DNA of 54,947 bases from an uncultured Bacteroidales bacterium (GTDB lineage: Bacteria > Bacteroidota > Bacteroidia > Bacteroidales > P3), in NCBI GenBank assembly GCA_944321735.1, contig CALUMK010000016.1:1-54947 (forward strand), written 5' to 3'. A model generated the notes under the pieces. The model did not search any database, was not told where the DNA came from, and saw nothing but the letters and a program-made list of their open reading frames with translations. This document shows, piece by piece, positions 4 to 54,729 of this stretch. Made by a program: the position numbers and the translations under genes. Each line of letters opens with the position of its first letter. Within the stretch, counting starts at the first letter, position 1.

Positions 4-128
4 GCGGCGTGTCAGAATGGGCAAGATACGAGGCGTCGAACCGCAGCGTGGCGCAGGAGCGTACTTTGGTACGTGACTAAGCCACGTAAGGTTCGCAACG
101 AAGTAGATTGCCCATTATCACACGCCGC
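4..128 (+). repeat. Palindromic element, family A, copy 1
   Basis: Imperfect inverted repeat of about 125 bases directly downstream of the sigma-54 activator gene. Outer arms 4-12 and 120-128 pair exactly, followed by AATGGGCAA (16-24) against TTGCCCATT (108-116). GA at 25-26 faces GA at 106-107. Inner pairs are CGAACC/GGTTCG and CGTGGC/GCCACG around the centre AGCGTACTTTGGTACGTGA. The same centre and GA/GA mismatch recur near 38.1 kb and 54.6 kb. The outer arm ends at the stop codon of the neighbouring gene, so a role in transcript termination or 3' end protection is likely but inferred. Confidence 0.75.
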
Positions 129-1486
129 TATATTCCGTATTTTTTCATCTTGCGATACAAAGTCTGCCTCGACACCCCCAACTCCGCCGCCGCCAACGAC
201 AGATTCCCCTCGCAACGCGCCACCGCGTTCTGTATCACGTTTTTCTCCATTTCAACCAAATCGACCTTGACATCCTCCAAATGCGAACGGTCGGACTTCT
301 GCTCTTTCAGCTCGAAATCCTGCGCCCCGAGCGTCCGCGAATCGGTCATGATAACGGCCCGCTCCACCGCGTGTTCCAGCTCCCGGATATTGCCCGGCCA
401 AGTGTGATGCTCCAGCCTTTCCACAGCATCCGGCCCCAAGTTCAAATCCGGCTTCCCGTACATCTTCCCGTATCTATCCAAAAAGAGCGATGCCAGTTGC
501 CGGATGTCCTCGGTCCGAAGACACAATGGAGGAATCTCGATATGAATGGTGTTGATACGGTAGAACAGGTCTTCCCGGAAATGCCCGGAAGCGACCCGTT
601 CGTGCAGATTGCAATTTGTGGCGCAGACAAGACGGATATCCACCGGAATGGGATGATTGCCCCCCACCCGGGTCACCTGCTTGCGCTGCAAGACAGTCAG
701 CAGCTTGGCTTGAAGATGAGGCGGGATATTGCCGATTTCATCGAGGAAAAGCGTCCCGTGGTCGGCCAGCTCGAACTTGCCTTCATGATCCTGTTTGGCA
801 TCGGTAAAAGCCCCCTTCATATAACCGAACAACTCGCTCTCGAACAGGCTTTCGGACAAAGCCCCCACGTCCACGCTCAGCATCGGCTTGTCCCGGCGAA
901 GCGACAAACGATGTATTTCCTTGGCCATCATCTCCTTGCCAATCCCATTCGGGCCGGTTATCAAGATATTGGCATCGGTCGGCGCCACTTTTTCCACCAA
1001 GGACTTGATCCGCTGCATGGCCGGACTCGTTCCCCAGAACATCAAGGATGCAGAATCTTCGGCAGATACCGGCATCGCCATCTCCGGGCTTCCTTTGGAA
1101 CGCCGTATCCGCAAAGCGCGTTCCAGCACGCTGACCAGCTTGCCATTGTCGAAAGGCTTGACCACAAAGTCGCAGGCTCCTTGCTGCAATCCCCTTACTG
1201 CCAAATCGATATCGGCATAGGCCGTAAACAGGACCACTTCCGTTTCCGGTTCCATCGCCTTGATTTCACCCAACCAGTAAAGCCCCTCGTTGCCGTTATT
1301 GATGGCGGCTTTGAAATTCATGTCCAACAGAACCACGTCCGTTTCCTCCCGCCGAAGCACATTCCGGATCTCGTCCGGGCAGGACAAGGTCGTCACCTTG
1401 GCAAACAAGGGCTTCAACAGCATCTCTACGGCAGCCAGCACCGCCTTGTTGTCGTCCACCACCAATATATGTCCGTCTTTTTCCAT
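128..1486 (-). CDS. Sigma-54-dependent response regulator (NtrC family)
   Basis: A 452-residue cytoplasmic transcription activator. The N-terminal receiver domain (about 1-125) has the acidic pocket DD, the phospho-acceptor Asp in VVLLDMNF and the Lys of VVKPFD. An AAA+ sigma-54 interaction domain follows (about 145-370), with Walker A GPNGIGKE, Walker B TLFLDEIG and an arginine-finger region FREDLFYR. The C-terminus holds a Fis-type helix-turn-helix (LSLAAAELGVSRQTLYRKM). The loop that contacts sigma-54 reads GAFTDA instead of the canonical GAFTGA. I believe this variant occurs in Bacteroidota activators but did not check. The partner histidine kinase is not in the window; it could lie beyond position 1. 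Target genes are unknown. Confidence 0.93.
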   Translation of the reverse strand: MEKDGHILVVDDNKAVLAAVEMLLKPLFAKVTTLSCPDEIRNVLRREETDVVLLDMNFKAAINNGNEGLYWLGEIKAMEPETEVVLFTAYADIDLAVRGLQQGACDFVVKPFDNGKLVSVLERALRIRRSKGSPEMAMPVSAEDSASLMFWGTSPAMQRIKSLVEKVAPTDANILITGPNGIGKEMMAKEIHRLSLRRDKPMLSVDVGALSESLFESELFGYMKGAFTDAKQDHEGKFELADHGTLFLDEIGNIPPHLQAKLLTVLQRKQVTRVGGNHPIPVDIRLVCATNCNLHERVASGHFREDLFYRINTIHIEIPPLCLRTEDIRQLASLFLDRYGKMYGKPDLNLGPDAVERLEHHTWPGNIRELEHAVERAVIMTDSRTLGAQDFELKEQKSDRSHLEDVKVDLVEMEKNVIQNAVARCEGNLSLAAAELGVSRQTLYRKMKKYGI

Positions 1487-1600
1487 AATCTTCTTTAACT
1501 AAGGCCGAGGCCCGTATGGCGAAGCCGAATGCCCCGCAAGCCGCCACCACACCCAAACCAATTAACCCACAGTTATTTACAAACACATAGATTCAACCTG

Positions 1601-1630
1601 TAAAGGTACGCAGAATCCGTTTACAAACAA
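1601..1630 (-). promoter_or_regulatory. Possible promoter of the NtrC-family gene
   Basis: On the minus strand TTG (1630-1628), 19 bases, then TACCTTTA (1608-1601), one base off the Bacteroidota -7 box TAnnTTTG. It would give a leader of roughly 110 bases. Weak match. Confidence 0.35.
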
Positions 1631-1800
1631 GCGGCACTGCATACGTCACGGAATCTCCGCTACATCGAGGAAGATGTAGAGTTTATGGTGGTCTAAAAAC
1701 CGAAAAAACGCACGATTCCAAGAGTTGTTCTCTTTAGCAAAAATTATGCCAAAATATTTAACATGCTAAATATCAAAATTTTAACATTTCAACTCACTAC

Positions 1801-1850
1801 AAAAGTGTAACATTTTGGAACACTCAGTGTCACACAAATGTTACACTTTT
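1801..1850. promoter_or_regulatory. 15-base perfect inverted repeat, possible operator
   Basis: AAAAGTGTAACATTT (1801-1815) is exactly repeated in inverse as AAATGTTACACTTTT (1836-1850), 20 bases apart. The spacer contains a smaller dyad, ACACT-CAGTGT. There is no run of T downstream and no gene end close by, so it looks more like a protein-binding site, such as an upstream activator site, than a terminator. Which protein binds is unknown. Confidence 0.5.
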
Positions 1851-2001
1851 CCGAACGAAGCCTACCTTTCGAGCCACATTTTATCCCCCAGCACACTTCT
1901 CGGCGGCAACGTAAATTCAAGACTTCCTGCCACGTACAGCATTGCCCCCATGCGGCATCGGGAGATACGGAAACATCCTTTTTCATGATAACGAAAAAAA
2001 A

Positions 2002-2026
2002 TAGTTGCAACTACAAAAAATAGTTG
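2002..2026. promoter_or_regulatory. Putative BlaI-type operator dyads
   Basis: A perfect palindrome TAGTTGCAACTA (2002-2013) overlaps a second dyad CAACTA (2008-2013) / TAGTTG (2021-2026). Both lie between the -33 and -7 boxes of the promoter for the BlaI-type gene. BlaI/MecI proteins bind TACA/TGTA-type dyads in their own promoters, so autoregulation is the natural reading. This is inference from position and symmetry. Confidence 0.5.
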
Positions 2027-2034
2027 TATCTTTG
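2005..2034 (+). promoter_or_regulatory. Promoter of the BlaI-type repressor gene
   Basis: TTG (2005-2007), 19 bases, TATCTTTG (2027-2034): an exact match to the Bacteroidota housekeeping consensus. The leader is about 85 bases. Confidence 0.7.
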
Positions 2035-2126
2035 CAGAGAAGAAGCAACGCGCGAAGCCAAGGCCGGATTCTCATTCCGAATCGGTTTTCACTTGCTTAG
2101 GCATCGCCCATAAAAAAAACAAGACC

Positions 2127-2543
2127 ATGAAAAGCAATATGACCAAAAAGGAAGAGGAAGTGATGGAAATGCTATGGAAACACGGCCCGATGAGCGTGGC
2201 CCAGCTTCTGGAGAAATACTCGGAGCCCAAGCCGCATTTCAACACCGTTTCGACCATGGTCCGTTCCTTGGAAAAGAAAGGCTTCGTGGACCACAAGGCC
2301 GAAGGCGTTTCCTACCATTATTTTGCCAAGGTGTCGGAAGCCGAATACGGCAAAGGCTTCATCAAGAACATCATCCATCGTTATATGGACAATTCGTATA
2401 TGTCGGCCGTCTCGATGTTCGTGGAGGAAGAAAAGATTTCGGTGGAGGAACTCAAGAAGATGATTGCCGACATTGAGAAAAACGAGGGAACGCCCAAGAA
2501 CGGGAAAAGACCCGCGAAAGCCTCGAAAAAGCAAGCGCGGTGA
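2127..2543 (+). CDS. BlaI/MecI/CopY-family transcriptional repressor
   Basis: A 138-residue winged-helix repressor. The N-terminal 75 residues carry the family pattern: MTKKEEEVMEMLWKHGPMSV, then the recognition region PHFNTVSTMVRSLEKKGF and the wing with VSYHYFAKV. The C-terminal half (YMDNSYMSAVSMFVEEEKIS) is the dimerisation helix where BlaI proteins are normally cleaved or disengaged. The last 20 residues are Lys-rich and probably disordered. It is followed after 136 bases by an M56 membrane protease, the usual two-gene sensor-repressor arrangement. In Bacteroidota such pairs are not necessarily linked to beta-lactam resistance, and no beta-lactamase gene lies beside this one. Dyads in its promoter suggest self-repression. 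Confidence 0.9.
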   Translation: MKSNMTKKEEEVMEMLWKHGPMSVAQLLEKYSEPKPHFNTVSTMVRSLEKKGFVDHKAEGVSYHYFAKVSEAEYGKGFIKNIIHRYMDNSYMSAVSMFVEEEKISVEELKKMIADIEKNEGTPKNGKRPAKASKKQAR

Positions 2544-2679
2544 TTTGCCCGCAGGCTGAACAGACACTGCCATAACGCAATCCTCAAAGAGGGGACCCTG
2601 TCCGCGTGGAAAAGACAACTGCTCGCAGAACCCAGGCCGGCATCCCGGAACCTGATTCGAACACTAAAAAACAGAAACC

Positions 2680-4047
2680 ATGGAAGCTTTTCTTGCTTAT
2701 CTCGGATACTCAGCTATCGGAATCGCCATTTTCTACCTCTTTTTCAAGCTATTGCTTAGCAAGGAAAAGAGTTTCCGCTTAAACCGGGCTTTCATCCTGG
2801 CTTCGGTCCTTCTACCCTTGGTGCTTCCTTGCATCCATCTTGAAATGAATTTCTTGACCGAAAACCCTTCCGGAATCACGACATGGGAGTTCCTGCAAGC
2901 GAACCCGTCTCCCGCACCGTCCCCTGACCTCAAAGGAAGCACTTCTTCCGAGCCAATCCTCATCCCCATCCTGTCGGCCATCTACATCATAGGAGCCGTA
3001 CTCTGCCTTTTCCATATCGGCATCCTCCCCTGCCGAGCCTTGCGCAAACTGATTTCCAAAGGGAAACTGATGGAAAAGCAAGAGGGCGTCCGGATTTTTG
3101 TTGTTCCGGAAAACATCCCGTCCATGAGCTGGTTCCATTTCGTATTGCTGCCGGAGGGGCAAGGAAAAAGCATCAACCCTCATATCCTGCAACATGAAAA
3201 GGCGCACATCCGGCTGGGACATTCCTACGACTTGCTACTAATGGATTTGGTCTGCCTGCTGCAATGGTTCAACCCTTTTGTCTGGCTGTTTCTCAAGGAG
3301 TTGAAAACCGTGCATGAATACGAAGCGGATGCAGCGGTCCTGCAATCGGGAGCCGATGCCAAAGACTACCAATACCTGCTGATTGAAGAAACAACGGGCC
3401 GGGACCGGTACCACCTGGCGCACTCATTCAATACTAACCTCAAAAAACGTTTAACTATGATCCAGAAAAAGAAATCCTCGAAATGGATCTATGCAAAGGC
3501 TTTGTATATGATCCCGCTGCTGGCGGCTTCCTTGATAGCGTTCGCCCGGCAACCTGAAGTACCTGCTTCCATGGTATCAACGACGATAAAACCGGAATCC
3601 CAAACGGCAAAGGCGATGCCCACGATGGAGGCCATGACGCATCCTGCGTCTCAGACCGAACAGGAAGCACTCTCCACCCAAGCCATGGAGGAAGAACCGG
3701 TTCGCGTCATACCGGACAAGAGGCCGCAGTACCCGAAAGGTTTCCTCGATTGGCTGAGCCAGGAAATCAAATACCCTGAATCCTTGCGCGAAGCCGGAGC
3801 GGAAGCCACGGTATATGTCGGTTTCATTGTCCGCAAGGACGGAAGTCTCGGAGACATCAAACCCATGAAACTCCAAATCACCGGCCAGAAAGCGGACGTG
3901 GATTACAGCCTTTTCGAGAAAGAAGCCGTCCGCGTCCTGTCGCAATCCCCGAAATGGATTCCCGGCGAACAGAAGGGCGAAAAGATAGACGTCCAGTATG
4001 CCTTGCCTATCAGATTTTCCATTCCCAAGGACTCGGAAAACAAATAA
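2680..4047 (+). CDS. M56-family membrane sensor protease with TonB C-terminal domain
   Basis: A 455-residue BlaR1/MecR1-like antirepressor. Hydrophobic segments lie at about 5-25, 35-50, 95-120 and 265-290, and the zinc-metalloprotease motif HEKAH is at 172-176. The partner BlaI-type gene is directly upstream, so it probably cleaves or inactivates that repressor after sensing an envelope signal. In place of the penicillin-binding sensor domain of BlaR1, the C-terminus (about 350-450) is a TonB C-terminal domain: YPKGFLDWLSQEIKYPESLR, a central VYVGFIVRKDGSL and a final QYALPIRFSIP. This architecture is common for Bacteroidota M56 proteins, and it points to sensing something other than beta-lactams. 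The signal cannot be told from sequence. Confidence 0.88.
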   Translation: MEAFLAYLGYSAIGIAIFYLFFKLLLSKEKSFRLNRAFILASVLLPLVLPCIHLEMNFLTENPSGITTWEFLQANPSPAPSPDLKGSTSSEPILIPILSAIYIIGAVLCLFHIGILPCRALRKLISKGKLMEKQEGVRIFVVPENIPSMSWFHFVLLPEGQGKSINPHILQHEKAHIRLGHSYDLLLMDLVCLLQWFNPFVWLFLKELKTVHEYEADAAVLQSGADAKDYQYLLIEETTGRDRYHLAHSFNTNLKKRLTMIQKKKSSKWIYAKALYMIPLLAASLIAFARQPEVPASMVSTTIKPESQTAKAMPTMEAMTHPASQTEQEALSTQAMEEEPVRVIPDKRPQYPKGFLDWLSQEIKYPESLREAGAEATVYVGFIVRKDGSLGDIKPMKLQITGQKADVDYSLFEKEAVRVLSQSPKWIPGEQKGEKIDVQYALPIRFSIPKDSENK

Positions 4048-4106
4048 TCCGTAATTGCCCCCACCGGTCATCGGGCTTTAGGGTGTATCCACCCTGTCTC
4101 CGCTAG

Positions 4107-4159
4107 CCTCTTGCACCCTGAGGCGGCATAATCACGCTGCCGCCTCAGGGCGCAAGAGG
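4107..4159. terminator. Strong hairpin downstream of the M56 gene
   Basis: 22-base arms (4107-4128 and 4138-4159) with a single mismatch and a 9-base loop; the inner arm is CCCTGAGGCGGCA/TGCCGCCTCAGGG. There is no clear T-run after it, so it may act as an mRNA 3' stabiliser as much as a terminator. A smaller hairpin AGGGTG-tatc-CACCCT (4080-4095) precedes it. Confidence 0.65.
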
Positions 4160-4310
4160 TCAGCAACCATGTTCGTTACAGCCCCTCTTTAGCGCAACAT
4201 CCCACGCAAATCAAAACGCTGATTATTGCCAAAGAAGTGATGTAATTATCATAGCTTGCTTAATCGATAGGGTCTTATTCCAATAAATTCGTATTTTTGG
4301 CTGTCGCCGA

Positions 4311-4377: not shown

Positions 4378-4411
4378 GATATGCAGACAGATTCGATTAA
4401 AAGAACAGATC

Positions 4412-4787: not shown

Positions 4788-4828
4788 AGATAAATACATA
4801 TTAATCATTTAATCCCACCAAACATCCT

Positions 4829-6420: not shown

Positions 6421-6436
6421 AAAATTTCCACTTCAA

Positions 6437-11881: not shown

Positions 11882-14644
11882 ATGCACAATTGGCAAAAAT
11901 ACGTAAAATTTCGGGCATACGGCATATGGATTACCGGGATATTCTGTATCCTGCTCCATGCATGCAGCTCGTCCCGCCATACGGGAACGAGCAATGCCGC
12001 ATTCCAGAATGGCATTGCCGCCCCTGTGCAACTGATCCAGGCCGACAGCAACGACATCGCGCCTTCCATGGCGGGCAACGCGGCCGACACCCTCCTCAAC
12101 GACAGCATAGCCTATGCGGGAATAGAGGACGGGGACGCTCTCTCCGATACCCTCCCTTCGGATTCGACTTACCAAATTCCGCCCGAAAGCATGGACGATG
12201 GTACCTGGATCAAGCAAAGTTCCACCATCGAAGGCATTTTGGACTACACCGCTGTCGATTCGGTCTATGTCAATATGAAAACGCGGATCGCGCATTTGTA
12301 TTCCGAAGCAAAAGTCAATTATACCGGCTTCAACTTGGAAGCCAATTACATGGAAATCAATCTTCCAAAATCCGAAGTCCTGGCGCAGCCCACCAAGGAC
12401 AGCACCGGAATGGAGATGGGCATCCCTCACTTTGAAGATGGTAGCAATGCCTTCGATGCCAAAGAGATACTATACAATTTCAAGACCGAAAAGGGCATCA
12501 TCAAAGACGTGATGACCAAACAGGAAGAAGTCTATGTGCATGGAAACGTGGTCAAGAAATACGAAAACGACGTGACTTTCATCAAAAACGCCCGTTTCAC
12601 TTCCTGCGACCTTGAAGTTCCCCATTTCGACCTCCGGGCATTCAAAGCCAAAATCATCCCCGACAAAAGCATCGTCCTGGGCTCGGCCATGATGTTCATC
12701 GAGAATATCCCGACCCCGATCGTCTTGCCCTTCGCCGTATTGCCCAATCAGAAGAAACGGAGATCCGGCCTCATCATCCCTAGTTTCGGCCAGACCCGCC
12801 GCGCCGGCTTTTTCTTTGAAGGATTAGGCTTTTACTTGAATATCAACGATTATTTTGACTGGAAAATCGAAAGCGATGTCTATACCAGCGGGAACTGGGA
12901 ACTCCGGTCCGAATTCCGCTACGCGCTACGATACAAATTCAGCGGGAACTTCAATTTCGGGTATTCCTGGATTTACCAAGGAGAACGGGGGATGCCGGAT
13001 CGCCCCCACCAGAACGGTCTCAAAATCCAATGGTCGCATTCCCAAGACTCCAAAGCCCGCCCCAACAGCCGGTTTTCAGCTAATGTAAACTACACCAACA
13101 GCACCTACAGCAGCTATTCGAACTCGCTCAACGACTATTTGACCAACACCACTTCGTCCAACATCTCCTATTCGCTTGATTTTGCCCAAAAACTCCACCT
13201 TTCGCTCAATGCCGGAGCCGATTACAACACCAACACCCAGGCATTCAACATCACCTTGCCTACCGTCAGCCTGACCGTGGATCAGCTCTACCCGTTCCGC
13301 CGCAAGAAATCGGCAGGAAAACGGAAATGGTACGAAACCATCAGCTTCAATTACAGCATTCTGGCACAAAACCGAATCAATGCCACCGATACCAGCCTGT
13401 TCACTCGCGAGACCCTGAAAAACATGAACAACGGGATCCAGCAGACAGCAAAATTGGCCAGCACGATCAAGATCCTCAAATACATCAGCTGGAACAACAC
13501 CCTGAATTACAACGAATATTGGTACCTGAAAAATACCGAGCAATACTACGATTTCGAGAACAACGAATTGGTCTATGAAGACCACCACGGCTTCAAGACC
13601 ACCCGGCAGTTCAGCTACAACACCAGCTTCTACTTCAATCTTTACGGAATGTTCAATTTCCGCAAAGGCCCTGTCAAAGCGCTCCGCCATGTCATCACCC
13701 CGACCGTCGGCTTCACCTACCACCCTGATTTCAGTACGCCTTTCTGGGGCGCCTACTCCACTTATACAGACCCTAACGGTGTTGTCCACTTGTACTCCAA
13801 ATACGCCAACAACATCTATGGGGGGCCTCCGTCCGGCGTTGTCGGAAGCCTCAACTTCTCGATCAAGAACACTTTCGAAATGAAGGTGCTCAGCAAGAAA
13901 GATACCGTGAACCCTGAAAAGAAAGTGAAGCTGATCGACAACTTGACTATCAGCAGTTCATATAACCTGGCTGCCGACTCCTTGCGCTGGGCGCCGCTGA
14001 CCATCAATGCCCGTACCGTCCTGTTCCAAAGGCTCAATATCAATGTAGGCGCATCGTTCGACTTCTATAAAGTGGATCAGAACGGGAACCGCTACAACGA
14101 ATTCTTCTGGGTCAACAACAAGCAGAAAGGCCTGCGTTTTACCCGGACCGACTTTTCCGCCTCTTTGAGCTGGAACCTCAACCCCAAAGCCCGTCCCAAA
14201 GAAAATCCCGAGACCCAGGAAATTCCGGACAATCCGTTCTACGCTTCGGATTTGTACGACCCTACCGACCTTTTCCTGCAACCCATCGATTTCAAAGCGC
14301 CCTGGAACCTGAACATCGGATACAACCTGAACTATATCATCACGCCCAACACCTTGACAGGCAAGCTGGAACACGATCTGGTCCAGACCATTACCCTGTC
14401 CGGGAATGTAAAAATCACAGACAAGTTTTCCGTCAACTTCGGAACAGGCTTCGATGTACAAGCCAAAAAGTTCACTATCACAACTTTGTCATTCAGCCGA
14501 GACCTCCACTGCTGGGAAATGGGTTTCTACTGGGTCCCGTTCGGCTACCGCACGCAGTGGAACTTCCATATCCGTGTCAAGAGCAGCATCTTCCAAAGCA
14601 TGAAGGTGGAGAAGAGCAAATCGTACATGGATAACTACTATTGA
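11882..14644 (+). CDS. lptD: LPS-assembly outer-membrane protein LptD (Bacteroidota form)
   Basis: 920 residues. A signal peptide with core AYGIWITGIFCILLHAC is followed by a Ser/Asp-rich segment, then the OstA-like periplasmic jellyroll (about 120-260: IAHLYSEAKVNYTGFNLEAN, YNFKTEKGIIKDVMTKQEEV) and a long beta-barrel with alternating aromatic strands to the C-terminus. LptD inserts lipopolysaccharide into the outer leaflet with LptE. The family markers PTPIVLPFAVLPN and RRSGLIIPSFGQT are clear. Start is the ATG at 11882; an in-frame TTG at 11873 lies in the -7 box. It is divergent from the amidase gene and convergent with a beta-barrel gene, with a hairpin in between. The residue after the signal (LHAC) could be read as a lipobox, but LptD is not usually a lipoprotein. 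Confidence 0.92.
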   Translation: MHNWQKYVKFRAYGIWITGIFCILLHACSSSRHTGTSNAAFQNGIAAPVQLIQADSNDIAPSMAGNAADTLLNDSIAYAGIEDGDALSDTLPSDSTYQIPPESMDDGTWIKQSSTIEGILDYTAVDSVYVNMKTRIAHLYSEAKVNYTGFNLEANYMEINLPKSEVLAQPTKDSTGMEMGIPHFEDGSNAFDAKEILYNFKTEKGIIKDVMTKQEEVYVHGNVVKKYENDVTFIKNARFTSCDLEVPHFDLRAFKAKIIPDKSIVLGSAMMFIENIPTPIVLPFAVLPNQKKRRSGLIIPSFGQTRRAGFFFEGLGFYLNINDYFDWKIESDVYTSGNWELRSEFRYALRYKFSGNFNFGYSWIYQGERGMPDRPHQNGLKIQWSHSQDSKARPNSRFSANVNYTNSTYSSYSNSLNDYLTNTTSSNISYSLDFAQKLHLSLNAGADYNTNTQAFNITLPTVSLTVDQLYPFRRKKSAGKRKWYETISFNYSILAQNRINATDTSLFTRETLKNMNNGIQQTAKLASTIKILKYISWNNTLNYNEYWYLKNTEQYYDFENNELVYEDHHGFKTTRQFSYNTSFYFNLYGMFNFRKGPVKALRHVITPTVGFTYHPDFSTPFWGAYSTYTDPNGVVHLYSKYANNIYGGPPSGVVGSLNFSIKNTFEMKVLSKKDTVNPEKKVKLIDNLTISSSYNLAADSLRWAPLTINARTVLFQRLNINVGASFDFYKVDQNGNRYNEFFWVNNKQKGLRFTRTDFSASLSWNLNPKARPKENPETQEIPDNPFYASDLYDPTDLFLQPIDFKAPWNLNIGYNLNYIITPNTLTGKLEHDLVQTITLSGNVKITDKFSVNFGTGFDVQAKKFTITTLSFSRDLHCWEMGFYWVPFGYRTQWNFHIRVKSSIFQSMKVEKSKSYMDNYY

Positions 14645-37077: not shown

Positions 37078-38013
37078 CTACTTGCTCCTCTTCACCGTAT
37101 ATAACACCTTGCCGTTCTTGTCCATCATGTGCAGGCAAAGTTCGTCCTTGTCGGCGGCAATCACCGAGAAACCCGTCTCGCTGCTGCAGAACTGCGTGCC
37201 TTCGATAGGTTCCACATCGCGAGCCAGCGAAGCCGAACTGTTGACCACATAATCGATATCGCTGCCTTTCACCCGGATATGCTGGAAATTATGGATATGG
37301 CCGCAAAGGTACATGTCCACATTATCGTGTTCGCGCAGGATCTTGTCCACCCGCTGCTGCATATCGGCACGTTCCGACTCGTTCTTGTCGGTCTGCGCAT
37401 AGATAGGATGATGGCCCACTACCAATGTCCAGTCGGCATCCACCGTATCCAAAACGGAATCAATCCAAGCCAGCTCCTTTTCCATGTCCTGCTTGCCGGC
37501 ATCGGGATAGTCTTCCGCATCGCGGCGGTACTTGTCGATAAGCGGTGCCGTATCAATCATCAGGACGCAGACCGTCACCCCGTTGTCCTCAATCATCTTC
37601 ACATAATAGCGCGAAGGCATGTTCCAGCGGGCGCTGACCTTGCTGTAGTCGATTACCGCTTGGGGATTGCTCCGGTACTCATGGTTTCCCAAAATCGCAT
37701 ACCAAGGAATCATCAGCTCCGGATGCTTGTAAATCAATTCGTAATTCGTCATCCAAAGCGGGTCGTCCACGCTGCGGACCCCTTCGAAATGATGCACGTC
37801 ACCGGCCGCCAGCACGCATTCCACGCTCAGCGTCTCGGCCATCACGCCCATCGTCTCGGCAATCGTCTTCTGGTCGTAGTACCCGTTGCGACCCAAATCG
37901 TTGGCCAAATAGAAATTCACATCCTTTTCCAAAGCTTCCCATTCTTCCGGGCTTTGGGCGAAAGCCGGCAGAGCGAAAACCGCACCAGCCAGCAACATCA
38001 ACATTTTCTTCAT
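37078..38013 (-). CDS. Secreted metallophosphoesterase (TRAP-type acid phosphatase)
   Basis: 311 residues with a signal peptide (MLMLLAGAVFALPAFAQ). Metal-binding motifs of purple acid phosphatases appear in order: NDLGRNGYYDQ, AAGDVHHFEGV, ILGNHEY, VVGHHPIYA and CGHIHNFQHI. It should hydrolyse phosphate monoesters in the periplasm or outside the cell. The first motif is less standard (NDLG where GDWG is usual) but keeps its Asp. Downstream of a TonB receptor gene on the same strand, with a family A palindrome between; the pair may act together in phosphorylated-compound scavenging, which is inference. A weak -7-like TAACCTTG lies upstream. Confidence 0.88.
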   Translation of the reverse strand: MKKMLMLLAGAVFALPAFAQSPEEWEALEKDVNFYLANDLGRNGYYDQKTIAETMGVMAETLSVECVLAAGDVHHFEGVRSVDDPLWMTNYELIYKHPELMIPWYAILGNHEYRSNPQAVIDYSKVSARWNMPSRYYVKMIEDNGVTVCVLMIDTAPLIDKYRRDAEDYPDAGKQDMEKELAWIDSVLDTVDADWTLVVGHHPIYAQTDKNESERADMQQRVDKILREHDNVDMYLCGHIHNFQHIRVKGSDIDYVVNSSASLARDVEPIEGTQFCSSETGFSVIAADKDELCLHMMDKNGKVLYTVKRSK

Positions 38014-38102
38014 TTTATATCGTATTTAATGTTTTTTTACAACCGCAAGGTTACAGTCCTATTTCAAATTCTTTTCAAAATCCCAAAATTGTCAATCCAG
38101 CG

Positions 38103-38230
38103 AAAATTTGGATTTAGAATGGGCAGATGCAAGGCACGCGCGGGTGAGAAAAGCGGAGCGTACTTTTGTACGTGAGCATTTTCGAATCCCGCGCGTAACG
38201 CCGCAGATGCCCCTCCTAAATCCAAATTTT
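38103..38230 (+). repeat. Palindromic element, family A, copy 2
   Basis: Outer arms AAAATTTGGATTTAG (38103-38117) and CTAAATCCAAATTTT (38216-38230) pair perfectly. Then GGGCA-GA-TGC (38121-38130) faces GCA-GA-TGCCC (38203-38212). The centre is GCGTACTTTTGTACGTGA (38158-38175). It sits against the stop codon of the TonB receptor gene, between that gene and the phosphatase gene. Confidence 0.8.
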
Positions 38231-41022
38231 TAGAAGTTCAGTTTGATACCAGCATTAAACCTCACCCCATAAAACTCCGCCTGCATCGTCCGTTCCTTCG
38301 TTCCCTGGTAGTAACGCAAAGGCTGGTTGAGCAGGTTATTGGCTTCGGCATAGACGGTCCATTTGAAATCCTTGCCGAAGGTATAGCTGGCGTTCAAGTC
38401 CAAATAGTTAACGGCATCGTAATAGCGGTCCAAATCGGCATGTTCGCCCATTTCATCGATGAAAGAGGAAGCGTAATTATACGAAAGCCTCAAATGGAAG
38501 CCCTTCAGCTCGAAGTAGAGAGAAGCATTGGCGGTATGCGCGGGCGAACCCGGCAGACGCAAACCTTGTTCGTTTTCACGGCCTTCGAAGTTGAAGTTCT
38601 GTACATTGGAGTAAGTGTAGGTATAGTTACCATAAACACCCAGGCATTTCAAAGCCGGCGTGATGAAACCCAAGTCACGCTGCAAGGTCACTTCCACACC
38701 CAAGAGGTCGGCATCCCCCGCGTTGACCGGCTTCACAATCTTGTCAAAATCCCCGGAAACGCCCGGCGCGTACTCGTAATCGCCGCTGATACGCTGATCC
38801 ACGATAAAGTCGTTGATCCGCTTGTAGAAAACACCGGCAGAAACCAAACCTACGCTCTCAAAGAAATAGTCGATGCTCGCATCGAAGTTGTAAGACAAGG
38901 TGGGCAACAAATCCGGATTACCCAAAGTGATTTCCATATCATACAGATTGATATGCGTGCTGGGAACCAAAGCCGAATACTTAGGACGAGCCAGCGTTTC
39001 GGTGAACGAAGCCCGGAACTGCAAACGGTCCGTGATGTCGTAACGGTACAGAACGCTCGGCAGCCAGTTGAAATAGCGGTGCTTCTGACGACCGGTAGCC
39101 ACCAAGCTTTCCTCTTCGTTCTCATCGATATTCCAGTTGAAGCCTTCGTAAGCCAGGTTCGTAGCCTCCATTCGCAAGCCCACAATCAACTGATGCTGCG
39201 AACCGAAATTCTGATCGAAGCGGACATAGGCCGAACTTACATGCTCCTCGGCATCAAAGTTTCCAGAAGATTCTTCCAAAACCTGCTCCCCTTCCAGATC
39301 CGAAAGCCGCAAGCTTCCCAGATAGCCGTTGCTGACAAAATCCGTGGAAGGATAGACCCCGTCCGGCATATACCCGTCGCGAATCTGTTCCACCAAGTTG
39401 GCCGACCAGGCCGAACCGTAAGCATCTTCATAAGCCCCGGCATAGTCATACATCACGATATCCTTATGCTTGGTCTTGCTCACATGCTTGGCACCGAACT
39501 TGAGCTTGTTGCTGAACTCCCCTTTGGCCAGATCCAGGCTGAAATCCAAATGTCCCTTGATATCGGTTTCGTAAATGTTCTGATTGGATTCAGTCAGTTC
39601 ATCCACTTCCCACTCCCCTTCATGAAGGTTGACCGGATTGCTGATATAAGGGAAACGTCCGCCAGCTCCCACGATATCGAAAGCCAAATCCTTCTGCTTC
39701 AAATTGAAATAACGCTCATGCGGACGGTCTTCGCTGGCACGGGAGTAAGAAGCCCCCCAGTCCAGGTTCAGACGCTTGGCAATCAGATGCTGTCCGTCCA
39801 AAGCGAAATCCATGGTCTGCTGCAATTCCAGACGGGCGTTCCGGTTGTCCATGTTCCCGCCCTTGGTCTCGATTTCGGCCTCCATTTCCTCCGGCTTGTC
39901 CAAATCCTTGAACGAAATGCGGTAACGGTTTTCCCAGTCATGGCGGCGATTGTAGATACCTTTGAACGTCAACTTGTTGTTGGCATTGATATCGTAATCC
40001 AACGACAAAGAATAGCTCTGACGCTGACGAGTCACATAATACTGGCGCGTCTCGGCATCGGTCATGAACACTTCGCCGGTTTCCTCGTCGCGGTCGTATT
40101 CAAATTCCACATCGTCCGAACCGATAGGCGCGTTCTGGTAAGAAGCAGCCACCATGATACCGAACTTGTCCTTGAAAAAACGGTCGCCATAGGTCAAACC
40201 CAAGTTCAGTTGCGCCTTGTCGCTGACCACATTGTAACCGCTTCCCACCGTAGCGGAAAACGTCCTGCGGTAAGGCGTGCTCTTGGTAACCAGATTGATC
40301 GAACCCCCGATGGCATCCCCGTCCATATCCGAAGTCACCACCTTGTTCACCTCGATAGTCTGGATCATGTCCGAAGGAATCAAGTCCAGCTGCACGTTAC
40401 GGATGTCCCCTTCGGCCGAAGGCAGACGGTTCCCGTTAATCGTTACCGAGCTCATATCGGCAGACGTACCCCGCACCTGGCCGAAACGGGCTTCGCCCTG
40501 GTCGTATTGCACATTGATCCCGCTAATCCGTTTCAAGGCATCCCCGATATTGGCATCCGGGAACTTGCCAATCTGGTCCGATGAAACCACATCCACGATA
40601 CCCACTTCGTTTTTCTGCGCATTCAATGCCCGCCGCTGGCCCCGGAACGCGCCCACAACAGACACTTCGTTCAACTGAATCCCTTCATGCAGCACGATAT
40701 CCAAAGAAGTGGTCGTTCCGGCCACCACCTCCACCGAGACTTCCTTGGGAGCAAAACCCACATAAGTCACTTTCAAAGTATAAGTTCCCGGATTCAGATT
40801 CGACAAGGAATAATACCCGTCCACATCGCTGACGGCACCTTCCTGCAGGCTGGCAATCCAAATGGAAGCCCCGGGCAAGGTATGCTTGGCTTCATCCACG
40901 ATACGGCCCCGGATTGCCCCCAAATTGGCCGATACATCTTCAGTCACTTCTTCTGCCTGCAAGCCGCCCGCCATCAGCAAGGAGGCGCAGAAACAAAGGA
41001 AAAATTTCAACAGTTTTGTCAT
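38230..41022 (-). CDS. TonB-dependent outer-membrane receptor
   Basis: 930 residues from the ATG at 41022, which opens a signal peptide (LLKFFLCFCASLLMAGGLQA); the upstream start at 41076 is less likely. A carboxypeptidase-like domain (about 30-115: GAIRGRIVDEAKHTLPGASI, VSDVDGYYSLSNLNPGTYTL) is followed by a plug (FPDANIGDALKRISGINVQY, VRGTSADMSSVTINGNRLPS) and a 22-strand barrel ending in AGIKLNF. The plug resembles the TonB-Xanth-Caul type receptors. No SusD-like lipoprotein gene is beside it, so it is not a standard starch-utilisation pair. The substrate is unknown; the phosphatase next door hints at phosphorylated compounds. Confidence 0.93.
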   Translation of the reverse strand: MTKLLKFFLCFCASLLMAGGLQAEEVTEDVSANLGAIRGRIVDEAKHTLPGASIWIASLQEGAVSDVDGYYSLSNLNPGTYTLKVTYVGFAPKEVSVEVVAGTTTSLDIVLHEGIQLNEVSVVGAFRGQRRALNAQKNEVGIVDVVSSDQIGKFPDANIGDALKRISGINVQYDQGEARFGQVRGTSADMSSVTINGNRLPSAEGDIRNVQLDLIPSDMIQTIEVNKVVTSDMDGDAIGGSINLVTKSTPYRRTFSATVGSGYNVVSDKAQLNLGLTYGDRFFKDKFGIMVAASYQNAPIGSDDVEFEYDRDEETGEVFMTDAETRQYYVTRQRQSYSLSLDYDINANNKLTFKGIYNRRHDWENRYRISFKDLDKPEEMEAEIETKGGNMDNRNARLELQQTMDFALDGQHLIAKRLNLDWGASYSRASEDRPHERYFNLKQKDLAFDIVGAGGRFPYISNPVNLHEGEWEVDELTESNQNIYETDIKGHLDFSLDLAKGEFSNKLKFGAKHVSKTKHKDIVMYDYAGAYEDAYGSAWSANLVEQIRDGYMPDGVYPSTDFVSNGYLGSLRLSDLEGEQVLEESSGNFDAEEHVSSAYVRFDQNFGSQHQLIVGLRMEATNLAYEGFNWNIDENEEESLVATGRQKHRYFNWLPSVLYRYDITDRLQFRASFTETLARPKYSALVPSTHINLYDMEITLGNPDLLPTLSYNFDASIDYFFESVGLVSAGVFYKRINDFIVDQRISGDYEYAPGVSGDFDKIVKPVNAGDADLLGVEVTLQRDLGFITPALKCLGVYGNYTYTYSNVQNFNFEGRENEQGLRLPGSPAHTANASLYFELKGFHLRLSYNYASSFIDEMGEHADLDRYYDAVNYLDLNASYTFGKDFKWTVYAEANNLLNQPLRYYQGTKERTMQAEFYGVRFNAGIKLNF

Positions 41023-41464
41023 TGTTTTATAAGGTTTGATTTTTTTTCTTTCCGCAAAAGGAGCAAACAGCCACAAAACGATCCTTGCCCCTTAGACAAT
41101 ATTTTAATAAACTGATTTTATTACAATTAAAATACAAAATCTTCCGATTTGACGCTGCAAAAGTCCGTTATAAAAGTTTCATGGTCTTTTCCGAATTTTT
41201 AACAAAAAATAACAGACAGGCTACGGAAATGTTAACGAAAGTTAAATCTGCGTTCTCCATGCCATCATGTTCCCATATTGACTATATTAGCTTCGATTTA
41301 GACCAATCCGATTTGCGACATATACCCTTACTTTGTGCTCTCTCAAAAAGAGAAAAACCTACAGGCTGGGAATAGGTTATTTCCTGCCAATCAAACAACT
41401 CAATAAAAAGACGAGCCATAGACACACTCTCGTCCAGACACAACAAACGACAAAAGACAATATC
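41023..41464. other. 442-base divergent intergenic region (receptor / efflux operon)
   Basis: AT-rich, no credible gene. Contains the dyad TTAAC-GAAA-GTTAA (41232-41245), a candidate regulator site for the efflux operon or the receptor. No full -33/-7 consensus pair was found on either strand, which would fit promoters that need an activator such as the AraC-type protein at the end of the operon. Confidence 0.5.
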
Positions 41465-50340: not shown

Positions 50341-50351
50341 AACAATCCCTC

Positions 50352-51638
50352 CTATTTCACTACAGAAAGATATACTTGTTTTATTTTCTCCGCGGCCGAA
50401 CTCCATTTGAGCGAATTGGCATCGGCCGAACCCATCCGGGCAAAGGTTTCCGAAAGCGCCGGATAATGCAGCAGCCCGTAAATGGCATCGGCCATCGCAT
50501 CCACATCCCAGAAATCCACCTTGAGCGCATGGTTCAGAATCTCGGCCACGCCTGACTGCTTGGAAATGACCACCGGGACTCCGGACCGCATGGCCTCCAG
50601 CGGCGAAATCCCGAAAGGCTCCGAAACCGAAGGCATCACATACACATTGCTCATCGCGTACATCCGGTCCACATCCATGCCTTTGAGGAAACCAGTGAAA
50701 TGGAAACGGCTGCCCAAGCCTAAGGATGCCACCTGGCGCACAATCTTATGCAGCATATCGCCCGAGCCGGCCATCACGAACTCCACGTTCTTGTCCTTTT
50801 CCATCACTAAACGAGCCGCTTCCACAAAGTATTCCGGCCCTTTCTGGTAGGTGACACGTCCCAAGAAGGTCACAATTTTGCGTTTGGAATCCATCTTCGG
50901 CTTCTGCACCGTCTTGGCCGAAGAACCCGGTTCCACCGCATTATAGACGGTAAACACCTTGGAAGCGTCTATTCCATAACGTTTTATGACAATATCCCGC
51001 GTATAGTTGCTCACCGTGATAATCCGGTCGGCAGCCAGCATCCCTTCCCGTTCGATTCCATAGACCACTGTGTTCACATTCTCTCCCGAACGATCGAATT
51101 CCGTGGCATGGACATGAATCACCAAGGGCTTGCCGCTGGCTTTCTTGGCCGCGATGCCCGCCCGGTAGGTCAGCCAGTCATGGGCATGAATCACATCGAA
51201 CTGGTTGCGCATGGCAATTTCCACCGCCACCATCGCGTAATGCTCCACTTCCTCCATCAGATTGGCCCGGTAAGCCCCGGAGAACTCATACTTGCGCCGA
51301 CTGTATGCCGCCACATCGAACACGGTACGGGACTGCTTCAGCTTCTCTATCTCGAAATACTGCCCCAAACCCATATAGGGAATCAAGCCCGATTCCACTT
51401 GGATATAGGTCAGGTTCTTGAAAAGTTCCTTATATACCGTGTTGCGCAAATCAATCTCCACATCCGAGGCATTGACCATCGTAGCCACCGAGGCATCCTC
51501 GTCCCCATGCAGTTTCGGTGCCACGAAAATCACCTCGACCCCTTGAGCCAGCAATCCCTTGCACATCCCGTAACAGGCAGTTCCCAGACCTCCTGTGATA
51601 TGCGGAGGGAATTCCCAGCCGAACATTAATACTCGCAT
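50352..51638 (-). CDS. GT4 glycosyltransferase of the glycogen cluster (GlgA-like)
   Basis: 428 residues, GT-B fold. N-terminal VLMFGWEFPPHITGGLGTAC carries the Gly-rich acceptor/donor loop of starch/glycogen synthases, then IHAHDWLTY, IHVHATEFDR, and in the C-terminal half FLGRVTYQKGPEYFVEAARL, GFLKGMDVDRMY and the donor-binding E-x7-E in EPFGISPLEAMRSGVPVV. It should elongate alpha-1,4-glucan or make a related oligosaccharide. It lies between the debranching enzyme gene and the GH57-like gene, the conserved Bacteroidota order. The usual acceptor in vivo is unknown. Confidence 0.9.
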   Translation of the reverse strand: MRVLMFGWEFPPHITGGLGTACYGMCKGLLAQGVEVIFVAPKLHGDEDASVATMVNASDVEIDLRNTVYKELFKNLTYIQVESGLIPYMGLGQYFEIEKLKQSRTVFDVAAYSRRKYEFSGAYRANLMEEVEHYAMVAVEIAMRNQFDVIHAHDWLTYRAGIAAKKASGKPLVIHVHATEFDRSGENVNTVVYGIEREGMLAADRIITVSNYTRDIVIKRYGIDASKVFTVYNAVEPGSSAKTVQKPKMDSKRKIVTFLGRVTYQKGPEYFVEAARLVMEKDKNVEFVMAGSGDMLHKIVRQVASLGLGSRFHFTGFLKGMDVDRMYAMSNVYVMPSVSEPFGISPLEAMRSGVPVVISKQSGVAEILNHALKVDFWDVDAMADAIYGLLHYPALSETFARMGSADANSLKWSSAAEKIKQVYLSVVK

Positions 51639-51772
51639 CTGTATCTGTTTTTTCTTATTTCTTCCATCCTTCCGGCCTCTGCCCGCCGGACAACCGATTT
51701 CTTGCCGCAGCCTCGCGCAAGATTCCCCTTGCCCCGATGCGGATCGCTTCCCGGTCGCTCGGCCCGCCGCCG

Positions 51773-53761
51773 TTACCTCCTCCGTCCGCCCTCCTTGGCT
51801 TCCGCCTTGTGACCGTAACGCAGAAACGAACGAATCCGCAAGAGTTCAGCCACGCTCCACGCCTGGCTGATGGCACCTTTGGCGGAATAGGGAGGATCGC
51901 CGTCGTAAATCTCGGCAATGCTGCCGATGCAGGCTTCTTCCAATGCCGGTTCGAAGCCCCGGTACAATTTTTCCACAAAGCCTTTCATGCTGTCCCCGTA
52001 AATCTTGAAACAGGCCTGCACGAAATGTCCTAACAACCAAGTCCAGACTGTCCCTTGATGATAGGCACGATCCCTTTCCGCCTGATTTCCCTTGTACACG
52101 CCCTTGTAGCGCGGGTCGGAAGGTGCCAAGGTCCGCAAGCCCCTCGGGGTCAGCAGACAGCCTTTGACCGTTTCCAGCACCAGCTGCCCTACTTTTTCGC
52201 TGACCGGCGAATAAGGCAACGACACCGCCAGAATCTGGTTGGGCCGTATGCTCCAATCCCGTATATCATCCTTGACCGTATCGGCCAAATAGCCTTTGCC
52301 CTTATCCCAGAAACAATTCTTGAACACATCGGGGAACTTGTCCATCAAGGGTTTCCAGCGTTGGATGAAATCCTTGTCCGCCTCCTTGCCGCTCGCCTGC
52401 TCGGCTTCCAGGGCAAACATGACTGCATTATACCATAGCGCATTGATTTCCACCGGCATACCATCCCTTTGCGTAACCGGCTTCCCATCCACGACGGCAT
52501 CCATCCAAGTCAAAGCGTAACCCGGTTTTCCCGCATAAATCAAGCCCTCGGGGGTCATCCCTATACCGAAATCCCCGCCTTTGGCATATTCTTCAATCAC
52601 CTGCTTCACCGCCGAGCCGAACTCCTCCCAGATTTCCCGCGTCGAACCCTGGTGAAGGGCGTACTGCTGCACATCCCACACGAACCACAACGGGGCATCC
52701 ACCGAATTGTAGGCAGACTGCTCGCCATATCCCACATTGGGGAACATGGCTCCTATCTGATCCTTGACCATGCCGCGAAGCACCTCTACATACTCGTCTT
52801 CATGCCCGGTACACAGTGCCAGCCCCGGCAAGGAAATGAAGGTATCCCGTCCCCAAGGCCCGAACCACGGATAACCGGCCACCACTTGCAAACGCTTTTC
52901 CTGACGGACGAAGAACGTCCTCGCTGCAGCCTCCAAACAATGGTCCAAATTGTCCAATGGCTTCAATTCCTTGCAGGCATCCACGAACATGTCTTCAATC
53001 CGCTCCGGCGATTCCACCTCATGCAAGCCGACCGCCAGATATACCGGCTGGCCCACATGAAGCTCAAAGAGGAAATTCCCCGGCGTGAACAAATCCTCAT
53101 GCCCCGGGTATCCCCGATCTATCTCGCAGGCATATTCCACATTGCGATACCAATCCGGCTTGGCAATGAAACCCGGCTCGCACGAAAACTGCATATACAA
53201 ATCGGAAAAAGCCGGGTACAGACGGCTCTTGATCCCATTGGGCACGTACTGCATCTCCGTGCAGGCATCCTCGTTGCGGTAAGTCAGCGCATGGGCATCC
53301 CGAAAAGCCAAGAACGGCTTGATAGCCAAATAGGTATCCGAATGGGCATCGACCAAGGTGTACTTTAGGATAAGCCTGTTTTCGGAAGAGTGCATCAAGA
53401 GTTCTTTCCGGAACACGACCCCGCCCACATGGTAAGTCCATACAGGATGGGTAATATATTCGAAATGCTCCAGATACTTATGCCCCTTAGGCTCTATGAC
53501 ATTGCCCCCGTACTGCTTCACGCCGAGATGGAACTCGCTCTCTCTTTGGATAATGGTTTCTTCGATCGACGACAACAACACGAAATTGTCCTGCGACAGT
53601 TTCGGCTGGCGGCACACGAAAAGCCCATGGTATTTGCGGCTGTTGCACCCTACTATGGTTGACATTGCATAACTACCATTCTGAGAGACACATGCAAATT
53701 CTTTTCGAAGGGAGTCCTCCAAATTGGAGAGCTGGGTTTTGTTCAGTTCAAAATGATGCAT
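51773..53761 (-). CDS. Glycogen debranching enzyme (GH133-type amylo-alpha-1,6-glucosidase)
   Basis: 662 residues. N-terminal GDE_N domain (SYAMSTIVGCNSRKYHGLFV, then RKELLMHSSENRLILKYTL) and a C-terminal (alpha/alpha)6 barrel with AGYPWFGPWGRDTFISLPGL, SVDAPLWFVWDVQQYA, PVEINALWYNAVMFA and the end region HQGTVWTWLLGHFVQA. It removes alpha-1,6 branch glucose during glycogen breakdown, complementing the phosphorylase half of the 18.6 kb fusion. First gene of the operon with its own promoter; 134 bases separate it from the GT4 gene. Confidence 0.94.
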   Translation of the reverse strand: MHHFELNKTQLSNLEDSLRKEFACVSQNGSYAMSTIVGCNSRKYHGLFVCRQPKLSQDNFVLLSSIEETIIQRESEFHLGVKQYGGNVIEPKGHKYLEHFEYITHPVWTYHVGGVVFRKELLMHSSENRLILKYTLVDAHSDTYLAIKPFLAFRDAHALTYRNEDACTEMQYVPNGIKSRLYPAFSDLYMQFSCEPGFIAKPDWYRNVEYACEIDRGYPGHEDLFTPGNFLFELHVGQPVYLAVGLHEVESPERIEDMFVDACKELKPLDNLDHCLEAAARTFFVRQEKRLQVVAGYPWFGPWGRDTFISLPGLALCTGHEDEYVEVLRGMVKDQIGAMFPNVGYGEQSAYNSVDAPLWFVWDVQQYALHQGSTREIWEEFGSAVKQVIEEYAKGGDFGIGMTPEGLIYAGKPGYALTWMDAVVDGKPVTQRDGMPVEINALWYNAVMFALEAEQASGKEADKDFIQRWKPLMDKFPDVFKNCFWDKGKGYLADTVKDDIRDWSIRPNQILAVSLPYSPVSEKVGQLVLETVKGCLLTPRGLRTLAPSDPRYKGVYKGNQAERDRAYHQGTVWTWLLGHFVQACFKIYGDSMKGFVEKLYRGFEPALEEACIGSIAEIYDGDPPYSAKGAISQAWSVAELLRIRSFLRYGHKAEAKEGGRRR

Positions 53762-53946
53762 AAAAATGTATTTGGTCCATCAATACCGGAGCTGCCGGAA
53801 AAGAATCTCTTGCCCGAACCCTAAATAGAATCACGATTCCCGTCAGATTCGAAGCGGAGCACAAAGAAAAAAGAATACGCTTCTGCCCCTTTCCTTCCCG
53901 ACATCCCGTCCCTATCCATAGTACAAGCATTCCTCATACTACTCTG

Positions 53947-53978
53947 CAAATATACGGAATTTGAAGCGCAAAGCCAAA
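53947..53978 (-). promoter_or_regulatory. Promoter of the glycogen operon
   Basis: On the minus strand TTTG (53978-53975), 20 bases, TATATTTG (53954-53947): full consensus. It leaves a leader of about 180 bases before the debranching enzyme. Confidence 0.75.
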
Positions 53979-54118
53979 AGAATTTTTTGTTACTTAAGTC
54001 CGAAATAATCCAAAACCGCGTTCACCAGCAAGATTTTTCAAATTTCGCTGGTAACATACTCATTTCTTGCCGATACCGGCAAAATCGCGAAAGAACGTGG
54101 AACACGACCTGAACAAAC

Positions 54119-54149
54119 TTGGCACTGCATCCGGCTTGCACTATCTTTG
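54119..54149 (+). promoter_or_regulatory. Promoter of the DedA-type gene
   Basis: TTG (54119-54121), 20 bases, TATCTTTG (54142-54149). Leader about 15 bases to the ATG at 54171. Confidence 0.7.
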
Positions 54150-54170
54150 CAAACCCTGATAAAAGTGTTT

Positions 54171-54620
54171 ATGGTTGAATTCTTGCAAGGCTGGGGGTAT
54201 ATCGGTTTGTTCGTCGGGGCGTTCTTGGCCGCGACCATCATTCCTTTTTCGTCCGACATACTGCTGATAGGAATCCTCTTAGCCGGTGGCGACCCTTGGA
54301 TTTCCTTCCTCTCGGCCACGGCGGGCAACTGGCTCGGCGGCCTTACCTCCTACGGATTGGGCCGGATCGGCAAATGGGAATGGATCGAGAAATGGTTCCA
54401 TGTCTCGGAGGAGAAGCTTCTCAAGCAGAAATCGAAAATCGACAAATACGGGTCATGGATTGCCCTCATCACCTGGCTGCCTTTCGTGGGCGATGTCTTT
54501 GCCATCGGCCTGGGATTCTACAAGCTGAACTTTGCCAAATGCGCTGTTTTCATGCTGATTGGGAAGGGGGCGAGGTTTGCTATTTGGATTCTCCTCTTCT
54601 ACTTGAAAACGCAGTTATAG
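54171..54620 (+). CDS. DedA/VTT-family membrane protein (YqaA-like)
   Basis: 149 residues from the ATG at 54171; the in-frame TTG at 54147 falls in the -7 box. Membrane stretches GYIGLFVGAFLAATIIPFSS, SDILLIGILLAGG and two more near the C-terminus (LPFVGDVFAIGLGFY, MLIGKGARFAIWILLFYL). The VTT hallmark is the re-entrant pattern GNWLGGLTSYGLGRIGKWE with the GxGK-like loop after it. DedA/YqaA proteins are proposed phospholipid scramblases or transporters that influence envelope integrity. Its last codons form part of a family A palindrome arm. Confidence 0.88.
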   Translation: MVEFLQGWGYIGLFVGAFLAATIIPFSSDILLIGILLAGGDPWISFLSATAGNWLGGLTSYGLGRIGKWEWIEKWFHVSEEKLLKQKSKIDKYGSWIALITWLPFVGDVFAIGLGFYKLNFAKCAVFMLIGKGARFAIWILLFYLKTQL

Positions 54621-54729
54621 AGGGCATCTGCTTCGTTACGCTCGGTCGCCTGCGTCCTCACGTACAAAAGTACGCTCCGGCGCAGGCTCCTTCGCAAGCC
54701 TCGCATCTGCCCTCTATAGCCGCGTTTTC
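54605..54729 (-). repeat. Palindromic element, family A, copy 3 (reverse orientation)
   Basis: The outer arms run into the DedA gene: GAAAACGC (54605-54612) and TATAGAGGGCA (54616-54626) pair with TGCCCTCTATA (54708-54718) and GCGTTTTC (54722-54729). On the minus strand it reads GGGCA-GA-TGC, then GCGTACTTTTGTACGTGA, then GCA-GA-TGCCC. The centre on the plus strand is ACGTACAAAAGTACGC (54660-54675). Confidence 0.8.

Follow-up and report, generated by a model that had tools for sequence, protein, structure and literature searches.

What are the palindromes that recur at gene ends in the genome of an uncultured Bacteroidales bacterium? The stretch analysed here (the window) is contig C16 (CALUMK010000016.1, 54,947 nucleotides) of assembly GCA_944321735.1, a genome of 2.71 Mb in 39 contigs referred to below as G000. 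An earlier note on this DNA had placed in it three elements with a common centre, and this centre, GCGTACTTTTGTACGTGA, is found at all three places (three occurrences at up to three mismatches, against 0.04 expected from shuffles). The elements had been taken for a conserved structured family distinct from ordinary terminators, which agrees with the many copies, strong covariation and fixed orientation described below; resemblance to the ERIC repeats, placement at stop codons with a TA signal and turnover of the inner stems go beyond the earlier note. We consider it somewhat better than an even chance (a probability of roughly 0.58) that the elements are a fold-recognised, ERIC-like, non-autonomous mobile repeat.

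A conserved hairpin with variable arms

Within two mismatches, the core of the element occurs at 62 places in G000 (28 forward, 34 reverse), against none for the same pattern read backwards as a control. From the loci analysed, 62 copies were extracted; 55 passed a fold filter and seven failed, six by pairing and one at a contig edge. A covariance model built from 54 aligned copies (L174 of the 55 omitted), designated R1, gives 109 matches in G000 at E ≤ 0.01 (150 of 802 first-look candidates scored), 102 of which cover model positions 1–134. In the window, R1 reports the three copies (Table 1), all of them among its training copies, and no other up to E = 10. Rfam 15 at its gathering score has no match in the window and just two tRNAs in 12 related loci; for copy 2, at E up to 10, the sole match is a viral internal ribosome entry site (E = 6, 16.4 bits, cut-off 50), a chance match. 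Skipping-rope RNA, a look-alike, was rejected since Rfam gave no match. R1 would label a class of intergenic structure unrecognised by Rfam 15 in the sequences searched.

The element is about 125–135 bp long and its plus-labelled strand forms one long hairpin, as does each of the three window copies, the arms of which are dissimilar among them. At the tip, a 5-bp apical stem, usually CGTAC-nnnn-GTACG, stands atop a G.U pair. G.A-rich internal loops are conserved, and the paired stems between the loops are largely free in sequence. The core stem is preceded by a conserved unpaired GGAGC and followed by GTGA; the other conserved unpaired blocks are AGATGC-(A/G)AGGC (5' side) and CAACG--GCAGAT (3' side). 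The side blocks noticed earlier are conserved as GAGGC (or AAGGC) and AACG and turn out to belong to these internal-loop blocks, while the GGGCA/TGCCC frame, also described as shared, is a variable stem that is not conserved in the family.

The outer arms vary among the 54 aligned copies, and the median pairwise identity is 64% among 98 full-length copies of G000. That the arms are dissimilar and still pair, as first noticed in the window, is borne out by a covariation score of 0.538, compared with 0.182 for shuffled alignments and 0.11–0.17 when slid. Paired cells make up 86.3% over 54 copies and 39 pairs, against 65.5% when shuffled, the 39-pair structure having been selected on the same alignment that was scored; double-sided changes are present in 31 pairs (27.6 shuffled) and 461 cells (160 shuffled). 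Five of the six core pairs are invariant and one changes on one side, an invariance that is partly a product of selecting these 54 copies by their core. Of the full-length copies of G000, 38 lack the exact core; nine of these have no readable 5-bp apical stem, and the 29 that do mostly show paired changes (CATAC/GTATG in 12, TGTAC/GTACA in eight), with the G.U pair beneath retained in 28 of the 29.

The centre had also been said to contain the −7 promoter box TAnnTTTG. The box is present, but in just 17 of 62 cores (hand count). A promoter reading was rejected: the tetraloop that completes the box varies, and in copies without the exact core the apical stem shows paired changes too.

Stop codons, occupied sites and inner modules

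Placement was counted with open reading frames called by length and uncurated; those in the stop-codon count are gene-sized (median 442 amino acids within a stretch of capped length), and a frame of at least 150 amino acids overlaps 20 of the 109 elements. For 84 of 103 copies the 3'-side gene has its stop codon towards the element, and the 5'-side gene is split 50:52. Examination of position relative to stop codons, proposed in the earlier note, placed the facing stop codon between −12 and +6 nt relative to the R1 match end for 58 of 84 genes on the 3' side, but for just two of 50 genes on the other side; gene starts occupy the same interval in 1 of 19 and 1 of 52 cases, respectively. Over half of the copies in G000 lie directly behind stop codons, in one orientation, and the directionality seen in the window holds as a fixed orientation to the adjoining gene. 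All three window copies adjoin gene ends, as had been stated: the right outer arms of copies 1 and 2 reach the stop codons 128–130 and 38230–38232 of minus-strand genes, and the stop codon 54618–54620 of a plus-strand gene falls within the outer arm of copy 3.

Among the 73 stop codons within 60 nt, TAA accounts for 42, TAG for 18 and TGA for 12, with one unread; copy 3 of the window, where the gene ends within the arm, is outside this set. The outer helix extends into the stop codon and fades 1–2 bases past it (56 register-tested copies, 50 kept), and a TA lies opposite the TA of the stop codon in 18 of 50 copies, against 0–4 at 15 other offsets. In the copies behind stop codons, TA appears to mark the right end and, in many, the left one as well. 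Elsewhere, facing stops at any distance were counted at 13 of 16 Bacteroidales loci, 8 of 11 other Desulfo loci and 9 of 12 Firmicutes loci, at 3 of 7 gammaproteobacterial and 3 of 6 alphaproteobacterial loci, at 20 of 44 RIFOXYD12-type loci, and for ERIC at 25 of 51, 12 of these 25 being at 35–55 nt from the core. The stop-codon bias is not universal, because the counts in the other sets include near-even splits.

Location directly behind stop codons, together with strong covariation, could also indicate a cis-acting RNA element of the 3' region (a terminator, 3'-end protector or processing site) that is selected as RNA and spread by gene conversion; ERICs in Yersinia are reported, in the excerpts available of PMC2229807 and PMC10969869, to alter mRNA stability according to orientation. 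The choice of strand points the other way. Isolated G.A mismatches on the plus strand outnumber C.T mismatches 77:11 in G000, 76:5 in G349 (a related genome introduced below), 92:14 in ERIC, 63:9 in the RIFOXYD12-type set and 85:8 in other taxa. Because this holds in all five sets, the conserved fold is, judging by the sequences, that of the plus strand, which is antisense to the adjoining gene, and this leans against a role in the mRNA 3' untranslated region, as does the retention of the G.U pair on that strand. Transcription of the plus strand would need the 5'-side gene, co-directional in just 50 of 102 cases, and a T-rich end in the sense of the gene is clear in 10 of 50 copies (at least five T of eight; 3–4 in 17 copies, fewer than three in 23). 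A 3'-region RNA element is the strongest of the rival explanations and, in our estimate, an unlikely one. Given the strand asymmetry, the candidates for the acting fold are single-stranded DNA and an RNA transcribed in the opposite direction.

Comparison with G207, a genome of the same genus, bears on mobility. Its TonB-receptor gene ends at the same residues (LNF-stop) as the gene behind which copy 2 lies in the window, and no R1 copy is present behind it. Reciprocally, a complete copy (L312 313–446, R1 117 bits) immediately follows the stop codon of the phosphoesterase homologue in G207, and no R1 copy up to E = 10 follows the phosphoesterase stop in the window; the protein ends of this pair are HTVEREK-stop and YTVKRSK-stop. 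This is one reciprocal pair of occupied and empty stop codons, with both proteins ending alike at the natural stop, and it slightly raises our confidence in a mobile repeat.

Sites occupied in both G000 and G349 (Candidatus Pullibacteroides excrementavium) suggest exchange within the element. Both flanks placed 68 of the 109 copies in G349, of which 18 with short or diverged flanks and five partial ones were dropped. At the remaining 45 orthologous sites, the flanks of which have a median identity of 97.7%, the inner module is the same at 25, different at 18, intermediate at one and deleted at one. The G349 interval contains a full-size R1 match at 15 of the 18 differing sites. Clear swaps with the outer arms kept include C9:42544, C1:47835 and C1:236914, among others; at C14:12544, one of the 15, another repeat has been inserted at the tip, which is not a swap, and C18:34152 is truncated in G349. 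At C12:63163, C3:19623, C17:15005 and C31:18635 of G000, a left-half remnant precedes a different, complete copy at one and the same stop, and G349 carries a single intact other copy at these four sites. At copy 2, G349 has the same module, and a further genome, G245, carries a different module there, in tandem and inverted copies. Stop-codon placement combined with the nearly bimodal state of the inner modules, same or different, between near-identical flanks offers a testable handle on mechanism.

Pairing might also be maintained without selection, if one arm were rewritten from the other by template switching at the hairpin and the covariation were mutational. One differing site has this character: C34:13341 (13341–13476, L238 versus L247 of G349) is an arm rewrite and not a swap: its left inner arm is perfectly complementary to the right arm, the usual sequence being present in G349, and a hairpin-templated rewrite is possible at this site. 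Isolated G.U and A.C mismatches are also nearly balanced in the variable stems of both Bacteroidales genomes (64:42 in G000, p = 0.04, and 41:40 in G349, p values being indicative as the copies are related). ERIC and the mixed other taxa, however, favour G.U (63:18 and 69:33; RIFOXYD12-type 81:63), and rewriting alone would explain neither the unpaired loops and G.U pair kept across copies nor the relatives matched by R1 in other phyla, so that we regard it as improbable. Ordinary bidirectional intrinsic terminators sharing a motif by chance are scarcely credible, even if some copies (e.g., C2:212639) have terminator-like A/T-tract ends, given the 62 core matches against zero in the reversed control, the conserved internal blocks, the fixed orientation and the lack of a terminator-like site called at copy 2 by a scan that permits short loops only.

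Relation to ERIC, distribution and possible mobiliser

ERIC elements were described in 1990–91 (references in PMC2229807) and are assigned to Enterobacteriaceae and Vibrionaceae (PMC10969869); the parts available of these two papers and the other cited texts name no parent transposase. Like ERIC, also termed IRU or RU-1, the present elements are single long imperfect hairpins, of about 127 bp in ERIC, and the folds of the G000 copies agree with this. Both share an apical GGAGC(n)TAC-nnnn-GTA(n)GTGA core, AGGCG and CAACGC-type blocks, dispersal near genes and, apparently, TA at the ends. The ERIC core was found in 5373 of 5426 Escherichia coli genomes.

The covariance models match reciprocally. 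R1 matches an E. coli ERIC (L178) at E = 7.7e-6 among 62 loci. Applied to L178 and to 50 loci chosen for an ERIC-type core, 51 in all, it matches 42 at E < 0.001 and seven more weakly, and gives none at two; L328, where an ERIC-type core seemingly lies inside a gene by chance, has no R1 match. A model of 33 ERICs, R2, ranks copy 1 first in the window (E = 9.6e-6) and copy 3 next (E = 1.5e-4); copy 2 fails at full length and is matched at the core only (E = 0.59). At the loci of G000, R2 gives 47 matches in 45 of 59 at E ≤ 0.01. Sequence comparison indicates that the family and ERIC have a common architecture, and they are probably akin; convergence would be the alternative source of the likeness. 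ERIC, unlike the present family with its differing outer arms, has fixed terminal inverted repeats, and here the stems are far more variable, the stop-codon placement is strongly one-sided, and the hosts are Bacteroidales, Desulfospira, Listeria fleischmannii, Mesorhizobium and others. Because the fixed terminal repeats and the host range of ERIC do not apply, the family is not filed as ERIC.

Repetitive extragenic palindromes (REPs) of the GTAG and CGTC families, associated with RAYT transposases, are likewise found near gene ends, but are 20–40 bp long. Short TTGCGAGG...CGAAGCAATC palindromes, presumably CGTC REPs, were considered as possible kin of the present family, and integron attC sites were considered as well. 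According to excerpts of PMC3733652, the termini of GTAG REPs supply stop codons and some have unpaired GA residues. The Correia/NEMIS and RUP miniature inverted-repeat transposable elements are also small repeats with TA ends (Table 1 of PMC2229807, seen in part), but theirs are fixed terminal repeats. Excerpts of PMC2229807, PMC10969869, PMC2267715, PMC3733652, PMC2759123 and PMC8040213 treat TA-ended ERIC elements of enterobacteria and Vibrio, as well as REPs supplying stop codons, and in these excerpts ERIC-like elements of Bacteroidota are not described. The literature searched for ERIC beyond enterobacteria and for the present element, seen in part and with preprints and most subscription journals outside its scope, yielded no description of the element.

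The search of the genome and its relatives with a covariance model, proposed earlier as a check, gave the 109 copies of G000, 111 matches in G349 (150 of 809 candidates scored) and 102 in G245; in a search of 25 genomes, 18 had matches, and seven same-family genomes without the core, picked as expected negatives, gave none. G263 and G349 are apparently the same genome. At up to one mismatch, the core is present in 25 of 149 genomes of the family and in 11 of 13 of the genus, at 1 to 69 places each, a patchy copy number that speaks for a mobile repeat, most single core matches outside the genus being at the level of the reversed control; the exact NN core is confined to G000 among 198 sampled genomes of the order. 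A scan of public genomes for the exact core found at least 109 stretches, the matches listed including Bacteroidales, one deltaproteobacterial genome (many contigs), Desulfospira, Pantoea, Erwinia, Pseudomonas, Mesorhizobium, Bosea, Listeria fleischmannii, Alicyclobacillus, Christensenella and others. Of 62 such loci searched with R1 (L178 included, that deltaproteobacterium being for the most part omitted), 56 match at full length at E < 1e-3 and six around the core only; the core, by which most were picked, adds about 19 bits to the score. R1 further matches at least 18 of 148 Bacteroidota genomes including G000 (at least 5 of 83 genera; up to 22 candidates scored per genome) and at least 27 of 79 genomes in the phylum of Desulfospira (up to 42 candidates per genome). 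By sequence criteria, R1-type elements with rewritten paired arms occur in Bacteroidota, the Desulfospira phylum, Firmicutes and Proteobacteria. A core-bearing palindrome was also seen in a metagenome-assembled genome of Rickettsiaceae (L132, R1 E = 1.6e-9), and a weak one in that of a Sulfurimonas (L117, R1 E = 7.9e-5 plus a core-only match) beside an apparent tRNA. This wider family lets the invariant parts of the fold and co-occurring host genes be asked about.

For the mobile repeat, we infer movement of the copies by a putative enzyme that would recognise the fold and not a sequence. This enzyme would have inserted copies into stop codons at TA; subsequent re-insertion or inter-copy recombination would swap inner modules at the same site. 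An inserted hairpin would open the 3' region of the gene, with possible secondary effects on termination or decay; the acting fold may be single-stranded DNA or RNA. RAYT and IS630 mobilisers were rejected, as Y1_Tnp and DDE_3, respectively, were not found in the Bacteroidales carriers. Correia/NEMIS and RUP elements have an IS630-type source. Among 24 genomes, Y1_Tnp occurs in six (carriers G344, G345, G350 and G358, non-carriers G199 and G201) and DDE_3 in none.

Several observations count against a mobile repeat. Both Y1_Tnp, the transposase domain of the REP systems, and DDE_3 are absent from G000, G245, G263, G207, G217 and G349, other enzymes not having been searched for. TA faces TA in only 18 of 50 copies, in a register selected by pairing, and the preference for stop codons is not seen in the RIFOXYD12-type set and is weak at best in ERIC and at the few alpha- and gammaproteobacterial loci. 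The window and G207 genes are 77–86% identical, so the insertion event is not bracketed, and between close genomes no clean empty site was shown, the G349 loci having been taken around the copies of G349 itself. Very recent paralogues are rare (of the 98 full-length copies, six at ≥90% and two at ≥95%), and the seven swapped sites examined have no donor at ≥95% among 197 copies (109 of G000 and 88 of the 111 of G349).

A broader reading is tentative and falls short of even odds: ERIC would belong, as one branch, to a bacterial superfamily of mobile hairpins whose shape, and not sequence, is recognised. A putative non-RAYT, non-IS630-like machine would insert them in a single orientation into stop-codon TA, inner stem-loops being exchanged wholesale at fixed sites within a genus as fold and position persist.

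Window copies and neighbouring genes

The features of the window are collected in Table 1. The window neighbours of the copies carry Pfam domains.

Table 1. Copies of the element and adjoining genes in the 54,947-nucleotide window.
Feature	Position	Strand	Remarks
Copy 1	1–134	+	R1 match; core 59–76 (one mismatch to GCGTACTTTTGTACGTGA)
Copy 2	38100–38234	+	R1 match; core 38158–38175
Copy 3	54600–54733	−	R1 match; core 54658–54675
Remnant of further copy	54741–54873	−	Left half ending GGAGCGTACTT; bounds by eye
Sigma-54 response-regulator gene	128–1486	−	Stop adjoins copy 1; C-terminal Fis-type helix-turn-helix complete
Calcineurin-like phosphoesterase gene	37078–38013	−	No copy behind stop in window
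TonB-dependent receptor gene	38230–41076	−	Stop adjoins copy 2
VTT-domain protein gene	54147–54620	+	3' end overlaps outer arm of copy 3

Copy 1 is located at the contig end, and because its left half recurs, identical, at the end of contig C17 (L030), contigs C16 and C17 probably meet at this copy. Contigs C16, C17, C37, C10, C30 and C39 of G000 start or stop in or near a copy, and since several contigs do so, the hairpins probably break the assembly. Three tandem copies with a core spacing of 135 nt are present at C1:304849–305229 (L155).

The remnant beside copy 3 is not reported by R1 and is interrupted at its tip by a second repeat, family B (starting GTTGCTGCTCCGCAGCG, up to three mismatches). 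This repeat lies within the tip loop of several copies: at 54741–54840 (−) in the window, at L215, L210, L231 and L149 of G000, and at L249 and L274 of G349.

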